Assembly (NCBI GenBank): GCA_025057935.1
Contig: JANWUW010000087.1
Location: 1-61,599 of the forward strand
Direction: 5' to 3'
Source: Thermoflexales bacterium
GTDB taxonomy: Bacteria; Chloroflexota; Anaerolineae; J036; Brachytrichaceae
Length of the DNA stretch: 61,599 bases
Shown: positions 4,784 through 10,744 of the stretch, piece by piece
How positions within the stretch are numbered: the stretch's first letter is position 1
How the letters are laid out: each line of letters begins with the position of its first letter
Notes under the pieces: generated by a model
Told to the model about the DNA's origin: nothing
The model's database searches: none
The model's input: the letters and a program-made list of their open reading frames with translations, nothing else
Made by a program: the position numbers and the translations under genes

Positions 4784-4805
4784 TCTAGGATCGCCGCGTG
4801 AGTTG

Positions 4806-5576
4806 ATGATGAGTGGACTGAGACCGCGCCGCGTGTTTATCCTCGGAGTGCCCGTAGATGACGTGACTGAAGCCGAAGCATGCGCGATTGCAGCGCAATG
4901 CGTAGAACGCGGCGGCGTACACCAGTTTGCCACGGTGAATCCAGAGTTCATCATGACGGCACAGCGCTTGCCAGAGTTCAAGGCACTGCTGCAGCGCACT
5001 GAGTTGAACGTGCCCGATGGCGTCGGCGTGCTCTGGGCAGCGCGGCAATGCGGCAGCCCGCTGCGAGAACGCGTTGCTGGGGTGGATCTCATGACGCGCT
5101 TGTGCGCGGTTGCTGCCGAGCGCGGCTGGCGCGTGTTCTTGCTAGGCGCTCAGCCAGGGGTTGCGGATCGTGCTGCGGAGCTGCTCGTGCTGCGTTGCCC
5201 AGGGCTGCGCGTGTGCGGCACGTTTGCTGGCTCGCCGCGCCCAGAGCATGCTGAGGACATTGTGGCGCGCATTCGCGCTGCCGATCCGCATCTGCTTTTT
5301 GTGGCTTACGGCGCGCCAGCGCAGGACTTGTGGCTTGGCGAGCACCTGCCGCATCTTGAGCGACCCGGACACGGGATGTTGGGCATGGGAGTTGGGGGTG
5401 CGTTTGATTTCATCGCAGGTGTGCAGCGACGCGCCCCGCGATGGGTTCAGCGCCTCGGGTTAGAGTGGCTGTATCGCTTGGTGCGCCAACCGTGGCGCTG
5501 GCGGCGCCAACTGGCGCTTGTGCGCTTCGCATGGCTTGTGCTTCGAGAACGCGAAGCTACGATGCTTCGACTATGA
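4806..5576 (+). CDS. WecG/TagA/CpsF family glycosyltransferase
   Basis: 256-residue GT26-type enzyme that adds an N-acetylaminosugar (for example ManNAc or its acid) to a polyprenyl-diphosphate-linked sugar in cell-surface polymer synthesis. Typical motifs are the early TVNPEFIM, PDGVGVLWAAR, GVDLM, the VFLLGAQPGVAD strand-loop, and GAPAQDLWLGEH followed by MGVGGAFDFIAGVQRRAPRW. TTG at 4803 and ATG at 4806 and 4809 are all possible starts; ATG at 4806 was taken. No Shine-Dalgarno sequence is evident. The basic C-terminus (RQPWRWRRQ) fits peripheral membrane association. Confidence 0.88.
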   Translation: MMSGLRPRRVFILGVPVDDVTEAEACAIAAQCVERGGVHQFATVNPEFIMTAQRLPEFKALLQRTELNVPDGVGVLWAARQCGSPLRERVAGVDLMTRLCAVAAERGWRVFLLGAQPGVADRAAELLVLRCPGLRVCGTFAGSPRPEHAEDIVARIRAADPHLLFVAYGAPAQDLWLGEHLPHLERPGHGMLGMGVGGAFDFIAGVQRRAPRWVQRLGLEWLYRLVRQPWRWRRQLALVRFAWLVLREREATMLRL

Positions 5577-5585: not shown

Positions 5586-6485
5586 ATGCCGTTGCCTCGA
5601 GCGATTGTTCTGGAAGGCGATTGCTTGCAGCAAATGGCAAAGCTGCAAGTGCAGGGAATCAACTTTGCGCTGACCTTCTTGGACCCGCCCTTCAATCAGG
5701 GCAAGGAGTATGCCTACTTCAGCGACGACCTTCCAGAGGAGGAATACTGGGGGTGGATGGAACAAGTGTGTCGCGCTGCACACCAGCTTACTCTCGAGGG
5801 AGGGGCGATCTACTTCATGCAGCGCGAGAAGAACGCAGAGCATGTGCTGCGCGTCTTGCGCGAAACGGGTTGGACGCTGCAAAACGTGATCATTTGGGTC
5901 AAGCGGACTTCTGCGGTCCCCAACGAGTGGCGCTTCGGCAAGCAGTATCAAATCATCGCGTTCGCCACGAAAGGATTCAAGCCACGCGTTTTTCACCGTT
6001 TGCGCATTGATGCTCCTCTGCGTCCCGAGTATCGCTACCCTCGAGAGAATGGCATGTATGTCACTGATGTTTGGGATGACATTCGGGAGTTGACCTCTGG
6101 CTACTTCGCGGGCGAAGAGGCGCTGCGTGACGCCCGCGGCAATCGGCTGCATAAGCAGCAATCTCCTGTGGCGTTGCTGGCGCGTATCCTCCTCAGCTCC
6201 ACATTGCCAGGAGATTGGGTGTTGGACCCATTCGCTGGCACAGGCACGACGGCTGTTGTGGCGCAGCAGTTAGGACGACACTCTGTCTCTATTGAGATAG
6301 ACCCAGAGAACGTAGCATGCATTTGTCAACGTTTGAGCGCACGACGTGAAGCGGATTCGATCGCAGTGCTCAAGCATTACTACCGCTTCACGCCCAATCT
6401 CGAACAAGTCTGGGGCGAGACTGACTTTCCTCCGCCAGTGCCTGTCCCGTCAGCGCAGTTCACGCTGTTCGATTCAGGCGAGTGA
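5586..6485 (+). CDS. DNA methyltransferase of a type II R-M system (beta-class amino-methylase)
   Basis: 299-residue SAM-dependent DNA methyltransferase. The catalytic motif IV, LDPPF at about residues 32-36, comes before the SAM-binding motif I, DPFAGTGTT at about 214-222. That circular order is typical of beta-class N6-adenine and N4-cytosine methylases, and which base is modified cannot be decided. Further motifs are GGAIYFMQR and VIIWVKRTSA. The stop at 6483-6485 is followed after one base by the GTG of a PD-(D/E)xK nuclease gene, which makes this the protective half of a restriction-modification pair. Codons seem less rich in G+C than in neighbouring genes by eye, consistent with transfer. 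Confidence 0.88.
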   Translation: MPLPRAIVLEGDCLQQMAKLQVQGINFALTFLDPPFNQGKEYAYFSDDLPEEEYWGWMEQVCRAAHQLTLEGGAIYFMQREKNAEHVLRVLRETGWTLQNVIIWVKRTSAVPNEWRFGKQYQIIAFATKGFKPRVFHRLRIDAPLRPEYRYPRENGMYVTDVWDDIRELTSGYFAGEEALRDARGNRLHKQQSPVALLARILLSSTLPGDWVLDPFAGTGTTAVVAQQLGRHSVSIEIDPENVACICQRLSARREADSIAVLKHYYRFTPNLEQVWGETDFPPPVPVPSAQFTLFDSGE

Positions 6486-6486
6486 C

Positions 6487-7470
6487 GTGGGTGCCTTCAG
6501 GTTGTTTGTCTCGGTTGCGAGCGCTGTTGCGTCGAAACCGGAATTGCTGACCGATCGTTCGCTCGAGGAACTGGCTTCGCTATACGAGCCGTATGCCTAC
6601 ATTGGAAGTCGGCATACTCTGCGAGAAGGCGTTTTTCGGGATGCAGTGCGCATTGCGCAATGCGCGCAGGAGAGAGGAGACACGCTTGAGGACGCTGTTG
6701 CTTGGTGGTATGGGACACGAAAGTGGAGGATTGACTCCGGCGCATTTCCTGATTTCGTGATGGCTTGGGAGGGGACGGGCGCTGTTGGCGATGGCGCGCT
6801 TGTGGAGCTCAAGGATTCACGAAGTGGCGCGATTGCGTCGTTTAACTCAACCCTGCCCTCATCGCACAAGAAGCTCGAAGCCCTCACGGAGCTGGTAAAG
6901 GATGCCGTGCGCCGCTACGAAGCCTGTCTGCAGGGGAGAGAGGGACCGGAAGAGCGGGAGTGTTTCTACCTTGTTCGGACTCACAGAGCCAAACCACAAC
7001 TCTGTCGTCTTTCGTTGGTTCAGGGCTCTTTCTTCGAGACGCTTCCCACGTCTGAACTTCTCACATCACTTTGGGAGCAAGTGCTTGAGCAGGCGAAGGT
7101 GCCACCCAAGTTGCGAGGTGCAATCATCTCGTATCTTTCGCAGCTTGGACGCGAGGACATTGCACAAACGCGGCAAATAGCGCGCGCTTCTATCAAGCCG
7201 CGCCTGCGCATCATGAGCGAGATCGTTCGCAAGGGTAATCCGCACGCATATCCAGAACTAACACCACGCAGCATTAACCTCACCCTAAAGCTGCCCGAGG
7301 AGCTAGTGCAGTGCCCAACTGAGCAGGATCGCGCTCAGCGAAGTTGGGCATGGATCGAAGACCAATGCCAAAAGGAGAGCATTGCGCCGCTCCAAGCCAG
7401 TGAGTTCGCATTAAAGCTTGTCCAGCATCGCCGCAACGGCCTGCACCTCGTGCTTCAGAAGGCTGTGTAG
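6487..7470 (+). CDS. Putative type II restriction endonuclease (PD-(D/E)xK)
   Basis: With GTG 6487 as start the protein has 327 residues. It carries a textbook nuclease signature: P88-D89 in GAFPDF, then 17 residues, then E107-L-K109 in ALVELKDS. It sits 1 nt behind the methyltransferase stop, so translational coupling is likely and would keep nuclease synthesis dependent on the methylase. The open frame extends further upstream to 6346 inside the methylase gene, but that part is low-complexity Arg/Ser sequence and is unlikely to be coding. I do not recognise the specificity family, and the target site is unknown. No controller (C) protein gene is visible. Confidence 0.75.
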   Translation: MGAFRLFVSVASAVASKPELLTDRSLEELASLYEPYAYIGSRHTLREGVFRDAVRIAQCAQERGDTLEDAVAWWYGTRKWRIDSGAFPDFVMAWEGTGAVGDGALVELKDSRSGAIASFNSTLPSSHKKLEALTELVKDAVRRYEACLQGREGPEERECFYLVRTHRAKPQLCRLSLVQGSFFETLPTSELLTSLWEQVLEQAKVPPKLRGAIISYLSQLGREDIAQTRQIARASIKPRLRIMSEIVRKGNPHAYPELTPRSINLTLKLPEELVQCPTEQDRAQRSWAWIEDQCQKESIAPLQASEFALKLVQHRRNGLHLVLQKAV

Positions 7471-7513: not shown

Positions 7514-9208
7514 ATGGGCTTGCCCCCCACCGCCATCGTGGAGAGCTTGCGCAGGCATGTTTTGTTCGCAGACCTCGATGAAGCTGCCTTCGCCAAGGTC
7601 CTCCAACTGCTGCGCGTGCGTCGGTTGAGCGAAGGGGAGCTGCTGTTTGCGGTTGGAGATCACGACTGCAATCTCTACGTGGTGCGCAGCGGCAAGCTTG
7701 CCCTACGAACGCTGAATGAACAAGGGCTTGACCCTATCACGCGCGTGCTCACAGCGGGGGACGTGTTCAATGAATACTCCTTTCTGAGCGGACACGTTGA
7801 TGAGCAAAGCGTTGAAGCGCTGTCGACAGCAACGCTCTGGTTCATCCCGCGCGATGCCTTCCAGGGTTTACTCGCGCAGGACGCGCGCTTGCGCGAGCAT
7901 GTGGCTCGATTGACACCGCACCGACCAATGCCGCGCAAATTGCGCAGCCAGATTTATGAAGGCGAGCAAGTGCTGTGGTTCGGCAGGCGTCATGCGCTGT
8001 TCTTCCTTGGCAAAATCGCGCTGCCTACCGTTCTCCTCGTGTTGAGCTTGGCGTTGGTGTTGCTTTCCTTCTTGGAGGCGCTAGCTGCTTTCGGTCTTGT
8101 GTTGCGCGGTGTGAGTGCGCTCATGGCTCTAGCAGCGCTAGGATGGCTGGCGTGGCAAGTGCTCGACTATTACAACGACTACTTCTTAGTGACTGAGGAG
8201 CGCGTGGTGCATCACGAGCGCATCGTGTTGCTCTATGACCATCGCGAAGAATTGTTGCTTGATCGCGTGCAGCAAGTGGAGGTAGAGCGAGGCACGTTCC
8301 TCGACACCCTTTTCGATCTAGGAGATGTTGTGATCACAGCACAGGGCGCCAACACAACCGTGCGCTTCGACCATGTGCGCAATCCTGCTGCCATTGGCAA
8401 GCTGATCCTTGACGCCACGCAGCGCGCACGGCACAGGATCTCAGCGGGCGAGCGTGCGCGCATACGCGCTGCGCTCCGCGCGCGCATGGGCATCACCGCA
8501 CCCAGCGCCCCAAGGGCTTCTCCTGCGTTGCCTGCTTCGCCTTCTCTGCTTGAGCGGCTACGCGCTTGGTTCGCACGTGTGCGCTACGAGTGGCTTCCAC
8601 GCGTGCAAGTCGTGCGCGGCGATGCGATCGTTTACCGACGTCACTGGCTGATCCTCCTCAAGGGTATTGCAGCGCCGACGTTCATGCTCGGGGGAGCAGT
8701 GGGGTTGCTGGCGGTGGGGAGGATGTTCTTGCCTTCGCTCTTCACCACGCTCTTGAGCTGGCCCTTCTCAGCGCTCGTTGTGCCCATCCTGCTGGCGCTA
8801 GTTGTCTGGTGGCTGTGGTGCTATGAGGACTGGCGAAATGATGTCTTCGTGATCACCAGCGATCGCATCCTCGATGTGAAGCGCACGCCGTGGGGCATCC
8901 TCGGAACACGGCAGCGCGCGGCTGAACTGCGAAACGTCCAAAACACTACTGTGACCACACGCGGCATCATTGACGTGATATTCAATGTTGGCGACGTGTC
9001 CATCCGCACTGCCGGGATGGAGAATGAGCTGCTTTTCGACCGCGTGTGGAATCCACTTGGGATCCAAGCGGAGATCAACCGACGTGTGCAACAGGCCCTT
9101 GAGCGCGCGCAGCGCCAGCAGGCGGAGCAGCGCCGGCAAGAGCTGGCGGAGTGGCTAGGAATTTACGACGAGCTGACGCGCCTGCATGCTCGACCGCCGC
9201 TGTTGTAA
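7514..9208 (+). CDS. cNMP-binding domain fused to two membrane PH-domain repeats
   Basis: 564 residues. Residues about 15-130 form a cyclic-nucleotide-binding (CRP/CAP-like) domain: LFADLDE, GELLFAVGDHD, LYVVRSGKLAL and AGDVFNEYSFLSG. Then come two copies of a unit made of a basic stretch, two transmembrane helices and a bacterial PH domain. Copy 1 covers roughly 135-300 (YYNDYFLVTEERVVHHERI, LLLDRVQQVEVERGTFLDTLFDLGDV in pieces); copy 2 covers 355-520 (WRNDVFVITSDRILDVKRT, RNVQNTTV, VGDVSIRTAG). A charged Gln/Arg-rich helix ends the protein. PH-domain membrane proteins of the YdbS type are of unclear function. The canonical cAMP-binding phosphate-cassette arginine is not obvious, so the ligand is uncertain. 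Confidence 0.75.
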   Translation: MGLPPTAIVESLRRHVLFADLDEAAFAKVLQLLRVRRLSEGELLFAVGDHDCNLYVVRSGKLALRTLNEQGLDPITRVLTAGDVFNEYSFLSGHVDEQSVEALSTATLWFIPRDAFQGLLAQDARLREHVARLTPHRPMPRKLRSQIYEGEQVLWFGRRHALFFLGKIALPTVLLVLSLALVLLSFLEALAAFGLVLRGVSALMALAALGWLAWQVLDYYNDYFLVTEERVVHHERIVLLYDHREELLLDRVQQVEVERGTFLDTLFDLGDVVITAQGANTTVRFDHVRNPAAIGKLILDATQRARHRISAGERARIRAALRARMGITAPSAPRASPALPASPSLLERLRAWFARVRYEWLPRVQVVRGDAIVYRRHWLILLKGIAAPTFMLGGAVGLLAVGRMFLPSLFTTLLSWPFSALVVPILLALVVWWLWCYEDWRNDVFVITSDRILDVKRTPWGILGTRQRAAELRNVQNTTVTTRGIIDVIFNVGDVSIRTAGMENELLFDRVWNPLGIQAEINRRVQQALERAQRQQAEQRRQELAEWLGIYDELTRLHARPPLL

Positions 9209-9259: not shown

Positions 9260-10744
9260 ATGCCCATCCGTCTGAAGTTAACGCTGTGGTATAGCGGCGT
9301 GCTATTGCTCGCGCTGATCGTGTTCGGGATCGGCGTGTACGCTGCTGTCAGCGTGCTGTTAGTGCGGCAAGTGGATGCACAGTTGCTTCAAGCTGTGGAG
9401 GCTGCCTTGCCGCTCGTCGCCGGACAGCGCCTGGAAGCGGTGGAGCGGGGTGGGCGCCTAGTGGTGAAGTTCACACAGCTAGACGCCTTTCGCGCCTCCG
9501 AGGTGTATGTGCAGGTGATCAGCGCCAATGGTGAGGTGATTGGGCTTTCGCCCAACTTGTTCGAATCACCGCTCGGCGACGCCCCGCTGGACGCGCAATC
9601 TATCTCTCAGCATCAAGCGCGGCTCAGGCAACATGCAAGCAGTGCCGCCGCCACAGAACTGAGTGCAGATATTTTCGGCGACGCGCGACATGGCGGGGGC
9701 ATGCCGCCTCTGCGCGTGCTCACCCGACCCGTGTTCACGCGCGACAATCGGCTGATAGGCTATTTGCAGGTAGCCACCTCGCTCGAGAGTGTGGCTATCG
9801 CGCAGCAGGTGTTGCTCCTCACGCTGACTGTCTCTGGAGTGTTGGTGCTGATGTTCTCAAGCGTGGTTGGCGTGCTGCTTGCGCGGCGCGCGCTGCGCCC
9901 TGTTGACCAGATCACCCAAACCGCGATGGCGATCTATCGCGCTGAAAACCTAGACCGCCGTGTGCCCGAACCACGGACGAACGATGAGGTGGCGCGCTTG
10001 TCGCGTGCCTTCAACGCCATGTTGGAGCGCCTCTCGCAGCTTTTCCACGCCCAACAGCGCCTCATCGCCGATGTTTCGCACGAGCTGCGCACGCCGCTCA
10101 CGGTCATCCGCGGCAACGTGGACTTGCTGCGCGCGATGGGTTGCACCGACGAGGAGTCCCTTAGCGCCATCGCCAGCGAGGCTGATCGCATGAACCGCAT
10201 GGTGCGTGACTTGCTGCTGCTCTCTCAAGCCGATGCTGGCGTGCTCTCCATGCACTTCACCAACGTTGATGTGCCGCGCTTGATTGCCGACGTCGAGCGC
10301 AGCGCCAACATGCTGGCGCAAGGCAAGCTGCGCATCGTCGCCCACGCTGAGCCCAACTTGACGCTGTACGGCGACTACGACCGCCTGAAGCAGGTGTTGC
10401 TCAACCTAGTGGACAACGCCATTAAGCACACCCCAGAAGGCGGCGAAGTGCGCATCGAAGCTACGGCGCACTACAACGGCTTTGCGCGCCTGACGGTGAG
10501 CGACACTGGCATTGGCATCCCAGAAAAGGACTTGCCGCATATCTTCGAGCGCTTCTACCGCGTGGATAAATCGCGTTCGCGTGCCAGTGGCGGCTCAGGA
10601 CTTGGGCTTTCTATCGCCAACACAATTGTGCAAGCCCATCATGGGCACATTGTGGTGAACAGCAAGGTGGGCGTAGGCACGACGTTCGACGTGTATCTGC
10701 CGATGCAGCCGCCGAGCAACGGCGCAAGCTTAACGACGCCGTAG
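9260..10744 (+). CDS. HAMP-containing sensor histidine kinase (orphan)
   Basis: 494-residue membrane sensor kinase. Transmembrane helices lie near residues 8-33 and 180-205, separated by an extracytoplasmic sensor region of about 145 residues. A HAMP domain follows (RALRPVDQITQ to ARLSRAFNAM). The HisKA box is DVSHELRTPL with phospho-acceptor H274, then the N box NLVDNAIKHTPEGG, G1 DTGIGIPEKDLPHIFERFYRVD and G2 SGLGLSIA. No response-regulator gene lies within the window on either side, so the partner is elsewhere. The 3' end overlaps the convergent aminotransferase gene by 15 nt. The ATG lacks a clear Shine-Dalgarno sequence. Confidence 0.92.
   Translation: MPIRLKLTLWYSGVLLLALIVFGIGVYAAVSVLLVRQVDAQLLQAVEAALPLVAGQRLEAVERGGRLVVKFTQLDAFRASEVYVQVISANGEVIGLSPNLFESPLGDAPLDAQSISQHQARLRQHASSAAATELSADIFGDARHGGGMPPLRVLTRPVFTRDNRLIGYLQVATSLESVAIAQQVLLLTLTVSGVLVLMFSSVVGVLLARRALRPVDQITQTAMAIYRAENLDRRVPEPRTNDEVARLSRAFNAMLERLSQLFHAQQRLIADVSHELRTPLTVIRGNVDLLRAMGCTDEESLSAIASEADRMNRMVRDLLLLSQADAGVLSMHFTNVDVPRLIADVERSANMLAQGKLRIVAHAEPNLTLYGDYDRLKQVLLNLVDNAIKHTPEGGEVRIEATAHYNGFARLTVSDTGIGIPEKDLPHIFERFYRVDKSRSRASGGSGLGLSIANTIVQAHHGHIVVNSKVGVGTTFDVYLPMQPPSNGASLTTP

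Follow-up and report, generated by a model that had tools for sequence, protein, structure and literature searches.

A cyclic-nucleotide-binding domain joined to a predicted tandem membrane PH core in a class of Chloroflexota

The open reading frame at 7514-9208 (plus strand, ATG start) of the window, i.e. the whole stretch of 61,599 nucleotides of Thermoflexales DNA that was analysed, encodes a protein of 564 amino acids in which a cyclic-nucleotide-binding domain (cNBD) stands in front of two units, each consisting of a predicted transmembrane (TM) hairpin and a bacterial PH domain. As judged from its modelled structure, the protein is a cNBD-fused, two-unit variant of the YdbS/YdbT-type membrane PHb2 proteins. 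The fusion marks the class of the window's genome, as far as sampled, and the TM-PH core extends wider in the phylum. Thus, the domains are known and the membrane core is of a known type, and it is the fusion itself that seems to be undescribed.

Little is understood about the bacterial PH domains of membrane proteins, and we know of no regulator for the best-known roles of membrane PH proteins, which are immunity to and export of membrane-active peptides. A class-wide fusion of PH domains with a cNBD would be a first sign that a membrane PH assembly can be switched directly by second messengers. In addition, one class provides a natural series of proteins with an intact pocket, an altered pocket and one to several cNBDs, which together with the cNBD-less cousins in sister classes allows for comparative testing. 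The protein is also of interest as a well-conserved and apparently undescribed membrane protein of the Anaerolineae, which is often encoded beside peptide deformylase.

Domain architecture and predicted topology

In the Pfam scan, residues 36-123 matched PF00027 (cNMP_binding) with an E-value of 4.8e-18 (65.3 bits, cut-off 27.5), and PF03703 (bPH_2) was found with an E-value of 2.4e-10 (41 bits, cut-off 22) and its best stretch at residues 440-502, where two bPH_2 stretches are reported at the permissive limit of E<=1. At the same limit no family beyond these two was detected in the 564 residues, neither a helix-turn-helix of the CRP/FNR type behind the cNBD, where TM helices and a PH domain are modelled instead, nor an ion-channel pore domain. 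PADLOC gave no match for the protein. PF00027 and PF03703 each have a single match in the window genome, both within this open reading frame. When 78 sequences were aligned (the window and 77 of 80 loci from named contigs; L077, L098 and L109 were excluded as partial or of odd length), PF00027 matched all 78 and PF03703 matched 69 at E<=0.01.

The AlphaFold2 model based on this alignment has a mean pLDDT of 93.4 and a pTM of 0.86. All parts of the gene are given here on the plus strand. The CRP/CNG-type cNBD comprises residues 5-133 (7526-7912) by Pfam, the model and fold comparison; its fold matches the M. loti CNBD 1u12 with a VIA Z-score of 18.4 (rmsd 2.0 over 127 residues), and solved cNBDs among the matches listed score between 16 and 18. 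Behind a short strand at residues 153-157 (7970-7984) the model contains TM helix 1 (residues 161-184, 7994-8065; mean Kyte-Doolittle value 2.45, with two basic residues immediately before it) and TM helix 2 (residues 188-221, 8075-8176; model and hhalign). They are followed by the first PH domain with its C-terminal helix (residues 223-324, 8180-8485), which is indicated by Pfam, model, hhalign and Foldseek and has its strands at 223-289 and the helix at 291-324. The second unit repeats this order with TM helix 3 (residues 378-405, 8645-8728; model and hhalign), TM helix 4 (residues 419-442, 8768-8839; model and alignment), at the end of which lies a conserved Y-x-DW-x-ND motif, and the second PH domain (residues 443-513, 8840-9052; Pfam, model and conservation), with strands at 443-512. 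All four helices are long and hydrophobic in the model and were interpreted as TM helices. The chain is completed by a long C-terminal helix (residues 514-558, 9053-9187; model and alignment), in which W547 and Y551 are nearly invariant, being present in at least 90% of the 78 sequences. Both PH domains are among the most conserved parts of the protein.

The two TM-PH units are homologous to each other according to hhalign (probability 99.95, E 2.6e-38, 27% identity over 160 columns). The repeated unit of TM hairpin and PHb2 domain that characterizes YdbS/YdbT-type proteins is therefore seen both in the model and in the comparison of the protein's own two units. The original prediction had read a cNMP domain and two tandem TM-hairpin/PH units in one chain from the letters of the DNA, and this reading is borne out by Pfam, model and hhalign: the N-terminal region clearly matches the cNMP-binding profile and fold, and structure prediction, named there as a check, recovered the cNBD and both units.

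For the TM-PH part the PH match to solved structures is weak. When residues 143-560 were modelled alone (pLDDT 93.6), the bacterial PH structures 3dcx and 3hsa were the best Foldseek matches with an E-value of 7e-3 at best and a TM-to-target of about 0.57, and nothing was found at E<=0.001. VIA scored PH domains with Z up to 7.5, which is middling by its own scale, and sequence search yielded no convincing solved relative of this part (best E 0.25). In both models a strand lies ahead of each hairpin, at 153-157 and, in two pieces, at 365-376. Several alignments to PH structures extend in the model of 143-560 from its first residue to about residue 161 and pair about 98 residues. An alignment that begins at the first residue can only do so by skipping the hairpin, so the hairpin seems to interrupt the PH fold. 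Each hairpin may thus lie within the PH fold close to its beginning, rather than simply preceding it, and the strand at 153-157 would possibly be strand 1 of the first PH fold. For membrane PHb families, Xu et al. (2010) suggested that strand 1 is missing, and they predicted for the DUF304-type families a location in the membrane, with the PHb domain inside the cell (PMC2817789). The soluble PHb proteins 3dcx and 3hsa share the PH fold, whereas the window's protein is predicted to be membrane-embedded with the hairpin modelled after the first strand.

Given two hairpins whose outer loops are short, the cytosol would contain the cNBD as well as the two PH domains and the C-terminal helix. In other Chloroflexota classes a TM-bPH core with a C-terminal PASTA domain was observed in L119, L124, L125, L126, L127 and L130, i.e. 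in six of ten proteins scanned, which had been picked partly for such an appearance. PASTA domains are usually extracellular, which is at odds with PH domains on the cytosolic side.

The build of TM helices and PHb2 (bPH_2) domains is shared with YdbS/YdbT (COG3402/COG3428), DdE/DdF, LnqC/LnqD and Orf7/Orf8 of leaderless bacteriocin clusters. YdbST is reported to protect B. subtilis against amylocyclicin (PMC8144471). E. faecalis no longer exports the leaderless bacteriocin EntDD14 once DdE or DdF is removed (PMC8657885; reviewed in PMC10376788), and the EntDD14 PH proteins act together with an ABC transporter (PMC10376788). Compared with YdbS/YdbT and DdE/DdF, the window's protein has an additional N-terminal cNBD and a conserved C-terminal helix, and it contains two units, whereas three PHb2 domains are described for DdF (PMC8657885). 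In contrast to the leaderless bacteriocin clusters, its gene has surroundings that are shared across the class and include no recognised bacteriocin cluster.

Distribution of the fusion and of its core

When 60 relatives including the window's own genome were searched, 59 matched at E<=0.001 and 47 contained a single near-full-length piece (from residue 50 or earlier to residue 538 or later), so the architecture is not a matter of chance. In a draw of 400 Chloroflexota genomes, searched with the protein profile at E<=1e-30, 115 genomes matched. According to the genome comparison's own grouping (NCBI places Thermoflexales in Thermoflexia) 54 of them, own genome included, belong to the window's class. 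In each of the 54 a matching piece begins no later than profile position 14, and the cNBD is therefore included; in one of them (G268) the gene carries an in-frame TGA. The other 61 matching genomes come from other classes, and here no piece starts before profile position 124, while in a few, e.g. G069, only one TM-PH unit was found at this threshold. It is this difference, matches within the class reaching the cNBD and matches outside not reaching it, by which the fusion marks the class. Only one genome of the class, G231, was among the 20 non-matching genomes listed (265 further genomes did not match). From other classes 20 loci were fetched (L111-L130), whose bPH_2 proteins match the same TM-PH profile as the window's protein, and none of the ten scanned contained PF00027.

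In the original prediction no characterised protein with such an architecture was known. This part has stood, as no description of a cNBD fused to a membrane bPH_2 protein was found in the literature searched, outside which most subscription papers lie. The architecture is no oddity, however, since the survey of it that was proposed there found the fusion throughout the class, as far as sampled.

The loci from named contigs were the best 80 of 150 relatives obtained from a contig scan with one short pattern. Their titles name Anaerolineae, Anaerolineales, Thermoflexales, Roseilinea, Ardenticatenales and similar; 77 are labelled Chloroflexota, and L041, L042 and L069, which carry no phylum label, were placed inside the groups of the tree. 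Two or more cNBDs precede the TM-PH core in L052, L053, L056, L070, L084, L098 and L109, with proteins of up to 1035 amino acids.

The nucleotide pocket and second-messenger enzymes

The phosphate-binding cassette of cAMP/cGMP-binding domains carries a Gly-Glu motif plus an Arg. In the window's protein the cassette (residues 82-102, 7757-7819, from the alignment of 78) reads GDVFNEYSFLSGHVDEQS, with Asn86 in place of Gly, Glu87 kept, Asp96, and no Arg anywhere at 94-98. It thus lacks the canonical motif expected of a functional cAMP/cGMP receptor. CRP/FNR regulators and the CNG, HCN, MloK1 and SthK channels have the same cNBD fold and belong to the same Pfam family, but here no DNA-binding or channel domain was detected, and the Gly and the Arg are replaced in the window's clade.

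Position 86 is Gly in 54 of the 78 sequences and Asn in 24, the window among the latter. Arg96 is present in 41 sequences, all of them within the 54 with Gly86, and in none of the 24 with Asn86; an Arg somewhere within 94-98 occurs in 11 of these 24 (10 at position 95). The Asn86 sequences form one group with a support of 100/100 in a tree from the TM-PH part, and the residues invariant in this clade include R58, R65, N86 and F90. Decay of the cNBD in the window's clade was considered and rejected, because the one pair compared, the window and L031 (64% identical), gave a pN of 0.206 and a pS of 0.661 for the cNBD, i.e. purifying selection. The cNBDs of the Asn clade have a mean pairwise identity of 0.39, those of the Arg group one of 0.36.

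Neither a class III cyclase nor a GGDEF domain was found in the window genome (2.27 Mb, 97% complete). It contains two loci for DAC, the c-di-AMP synthase (G000 C23:21606-21959 and C47:16364-16717), and one CYTH protein, with a CHAD domain also present, which we take to point to a phosphate-polymer enzyme. Class III cyclase matches were obtained in 36 of 60 genomes, 14 of 28 in the window's family and 22 of 32 in the rest of the class, and in none of the three genomes of the window's genus; their presence therefore does not explain the pocket types cleanly.

As the Gly and Arg of the pocket are replaced and no class III cyclase or GGDEF domain was found, an ordinary cAMP/cGMP or c-di-GMP input is unlikely for the window's protein, judging by its sequence and that of its genome. 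On the same grounds the ligand control suggested in the original prediction is not supported as stated, and the inspection of cassette residues proposed there gave the replacements described above. For the 41 sequences with Arg96, cyclic-nucleotide control is plausible, since the Arg of the pocket is present.

Gene neighbourhood and possible function

The neighbourhood was compared in 81 loci, the 80 from named contigs and the window. Peptide deformylase is the commonest neighbour and lies next downstream on the same strand in 62 of them, with 0-165 bp (median 52) between the stop of the gene and the first profile-matched base of the deformylase, a representative of which was scanned as PF01327. 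It was not seen in 19 loci, in three of which the contig breaks off no more than 130 bp from the gene, and in 10 loci uvrC is found nearby instead. Within the window's own branch (window, L031, L032 and L040) the deformylase is not adjacent, and in the window genome it is located on a different contig beside a GNAT-type gene. The outer neighbour on the upstream side is a WecG/TagA glycosyltransferase in the Asn group and often a 6-phosphogluconate-dehydrogenase-like gene or a redoxin in the larger group; on the downstream side the Asn group has a GNAT protein and the larger group often a RecF-like ATPase. In the window, inspection by eye of the open reading frames up to 5 kb from the gene revealed neither a bacteriocin gene nor an ABC transporter gene.

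The reading that we tentatively favour is a housekeeping PH assembly of the inner membrane, which would serve as a scaffold in membrane homeostasis or transport and carries the cNBD as a cytosolic lever, the input of which is here not ordinary cAMP/cGMP. By analogy with YdbS/YdbT and DdE-DdF, the tandem PHb2 core would self-assemble in the membrane and may handle, or protect against, membrane-active peptides or lipids. Located beside TM helix 1 and the first PH domain, the cNBD would tune this assembly, and in many Anaerolineales relatives, where the pocket Arg is kept, the signal would be the binding of an ordinary cyclic nucleotide. Among the window and its clade the Arg is lost from its place and the domain is under selection, so the lever might work via another ligand, or the cNBD might be a fixed structural element. 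The conserved C-terminal helix may dock a partner. The linkage to deformylase in the relatives suggests that the protein is expressed with, or works near, protein synthesis at the membrane. A wilder thought starts from the leaderless bacteriocins, which have an N-terminal formyl-methionine (PMC10376788, PMC11580447): a PHb2 protein encoded beside deformylase might therefore concern formylated membrane peptides.

Alternatively, the cNBD of the window's clade might bind no small ligand at all and act as a structural or protein-docking module. The protein would then be a static scaffold in the membrane, which possibly keeps peptide deformylase or factors linked to the ribosome close to it. The exchange of Gly for Asn and the missing aligned Arg in 24 of 24 clade members would fit this, as would the lack of a detected cyclase or GGDEF domain, the conserved C-terminal helix and a deformylase that stays the commonest neighbour while the outer neighbours vary by group. 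However, the domain is as conserved as that of the Arg-bearing group, its clade-invariant R58, R65, N86 and F90 look retooled rather than dead, and within the branch of the window the gene has no deformylase beside it, so we regard this explanation as rather doubtful, if the most serious competitor. If the cNBD was indeed retooled for a ligand other than cAMP/cGMP, with R58, R65 and N86 as the altered site and the messenger coupled to the PH assembly, c-di-AMP is the prime candidate, given the two DAC loci, no detectable class III cyclase or GGDEF domain, and the fact that this is the only cNBD found in the genome; taken as a whole, such a scheme appears improbable.

The gene order around the cNBD-less core bears on a further possibility, namely that the protein serves an ABC-2 type exporter as an accessory or regulatory subunit, a role that this core may have in other classes. 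There, an exported protein of about 630 amino acids with a weak DUF4350 match adjoins the core in 12 of the 20 loci, and a GldA/DrrA-like ABC ATPase is also present in 8 of these 12, followed by a permease match in L112 (via L137) and L111 (via L143). Upstream, L111 and L113 have genes similar to plsC, and L117 has one for a CDP-alcohol phosphatidyltransferase. The cooperation of the EntDD14 PH proteins with an ABC transporter points in the same direction (PMC10376788), and the exported protein occurs somewhere in 26 of 28 genomes of the window's family. Against this, the exported protein was not found in the window genome or in G002 and occurs in only 8 of 32 other genomes of the class, longer stretches for L115, L118 and L120 contained no GldA/DrrA-type ATPase, and unlike the out-of-class loci with an ABC-exporter gene order the window has no recognised ABC gene beside the gene. 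An exporter subunit is thus unlikely here, and we keep to the PH assembly with a cytosolic lever as the working view. The order cmk (9 of 20 loci) or plsC, TM-bPH core, exported protein and ABC ATPase (8 loci) recurs in L111-L118, L120, L122, L128 and L129, and to our knowledge an operon of this kind has not been described. No deformylase was seen near the out-of-class core in any of the 20 loci within the stretches examined.

A link to the sensor histidine kinase gene at 9260-10744 (plus strand), left open in the original prediction, proved to be incidental and was rejected. The kinase gene starts only 51 bp after the open reading frame on the same strand and also comes next in L031, which would suit a ligand-sensing module formed by both proteins. 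However, no relative of the kinase was detected in the other 79 loci (tblastn, E<=1e-5), and it was not seen in the near relatives L032 (1087 bp downstream surveyed) and L040. Since it adjoins in 2 of 81 loci only, the kinase is not a general partner, and the survey largely refutes such a module, which we consider hardly credible. No response regulator was noticed among the open reading frames neighbouring the kinase.

On the upstream side, the WecG/TagA-type glycosyltransferase of the window's clade is encoded at 4803-5576 (plus strand). In L031 it is directly upstream, whereas in the window it is separated from the gene by two others that L031 lacks, one for a DNA methyltransferase and an unknown open reading frame. 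These two occupy 5586-7470 (plus strand) and consist of a type II-like DNA methyltransferase (PF01555) and an overlapping open reading frame of 374 amino acids, the latter with no match in Pfam or PADLOC. Their GC content of 0.56-0.57, compared with 0.62 for the window, was recorded for the same region, which looks like an inserted restriction-modification pair.
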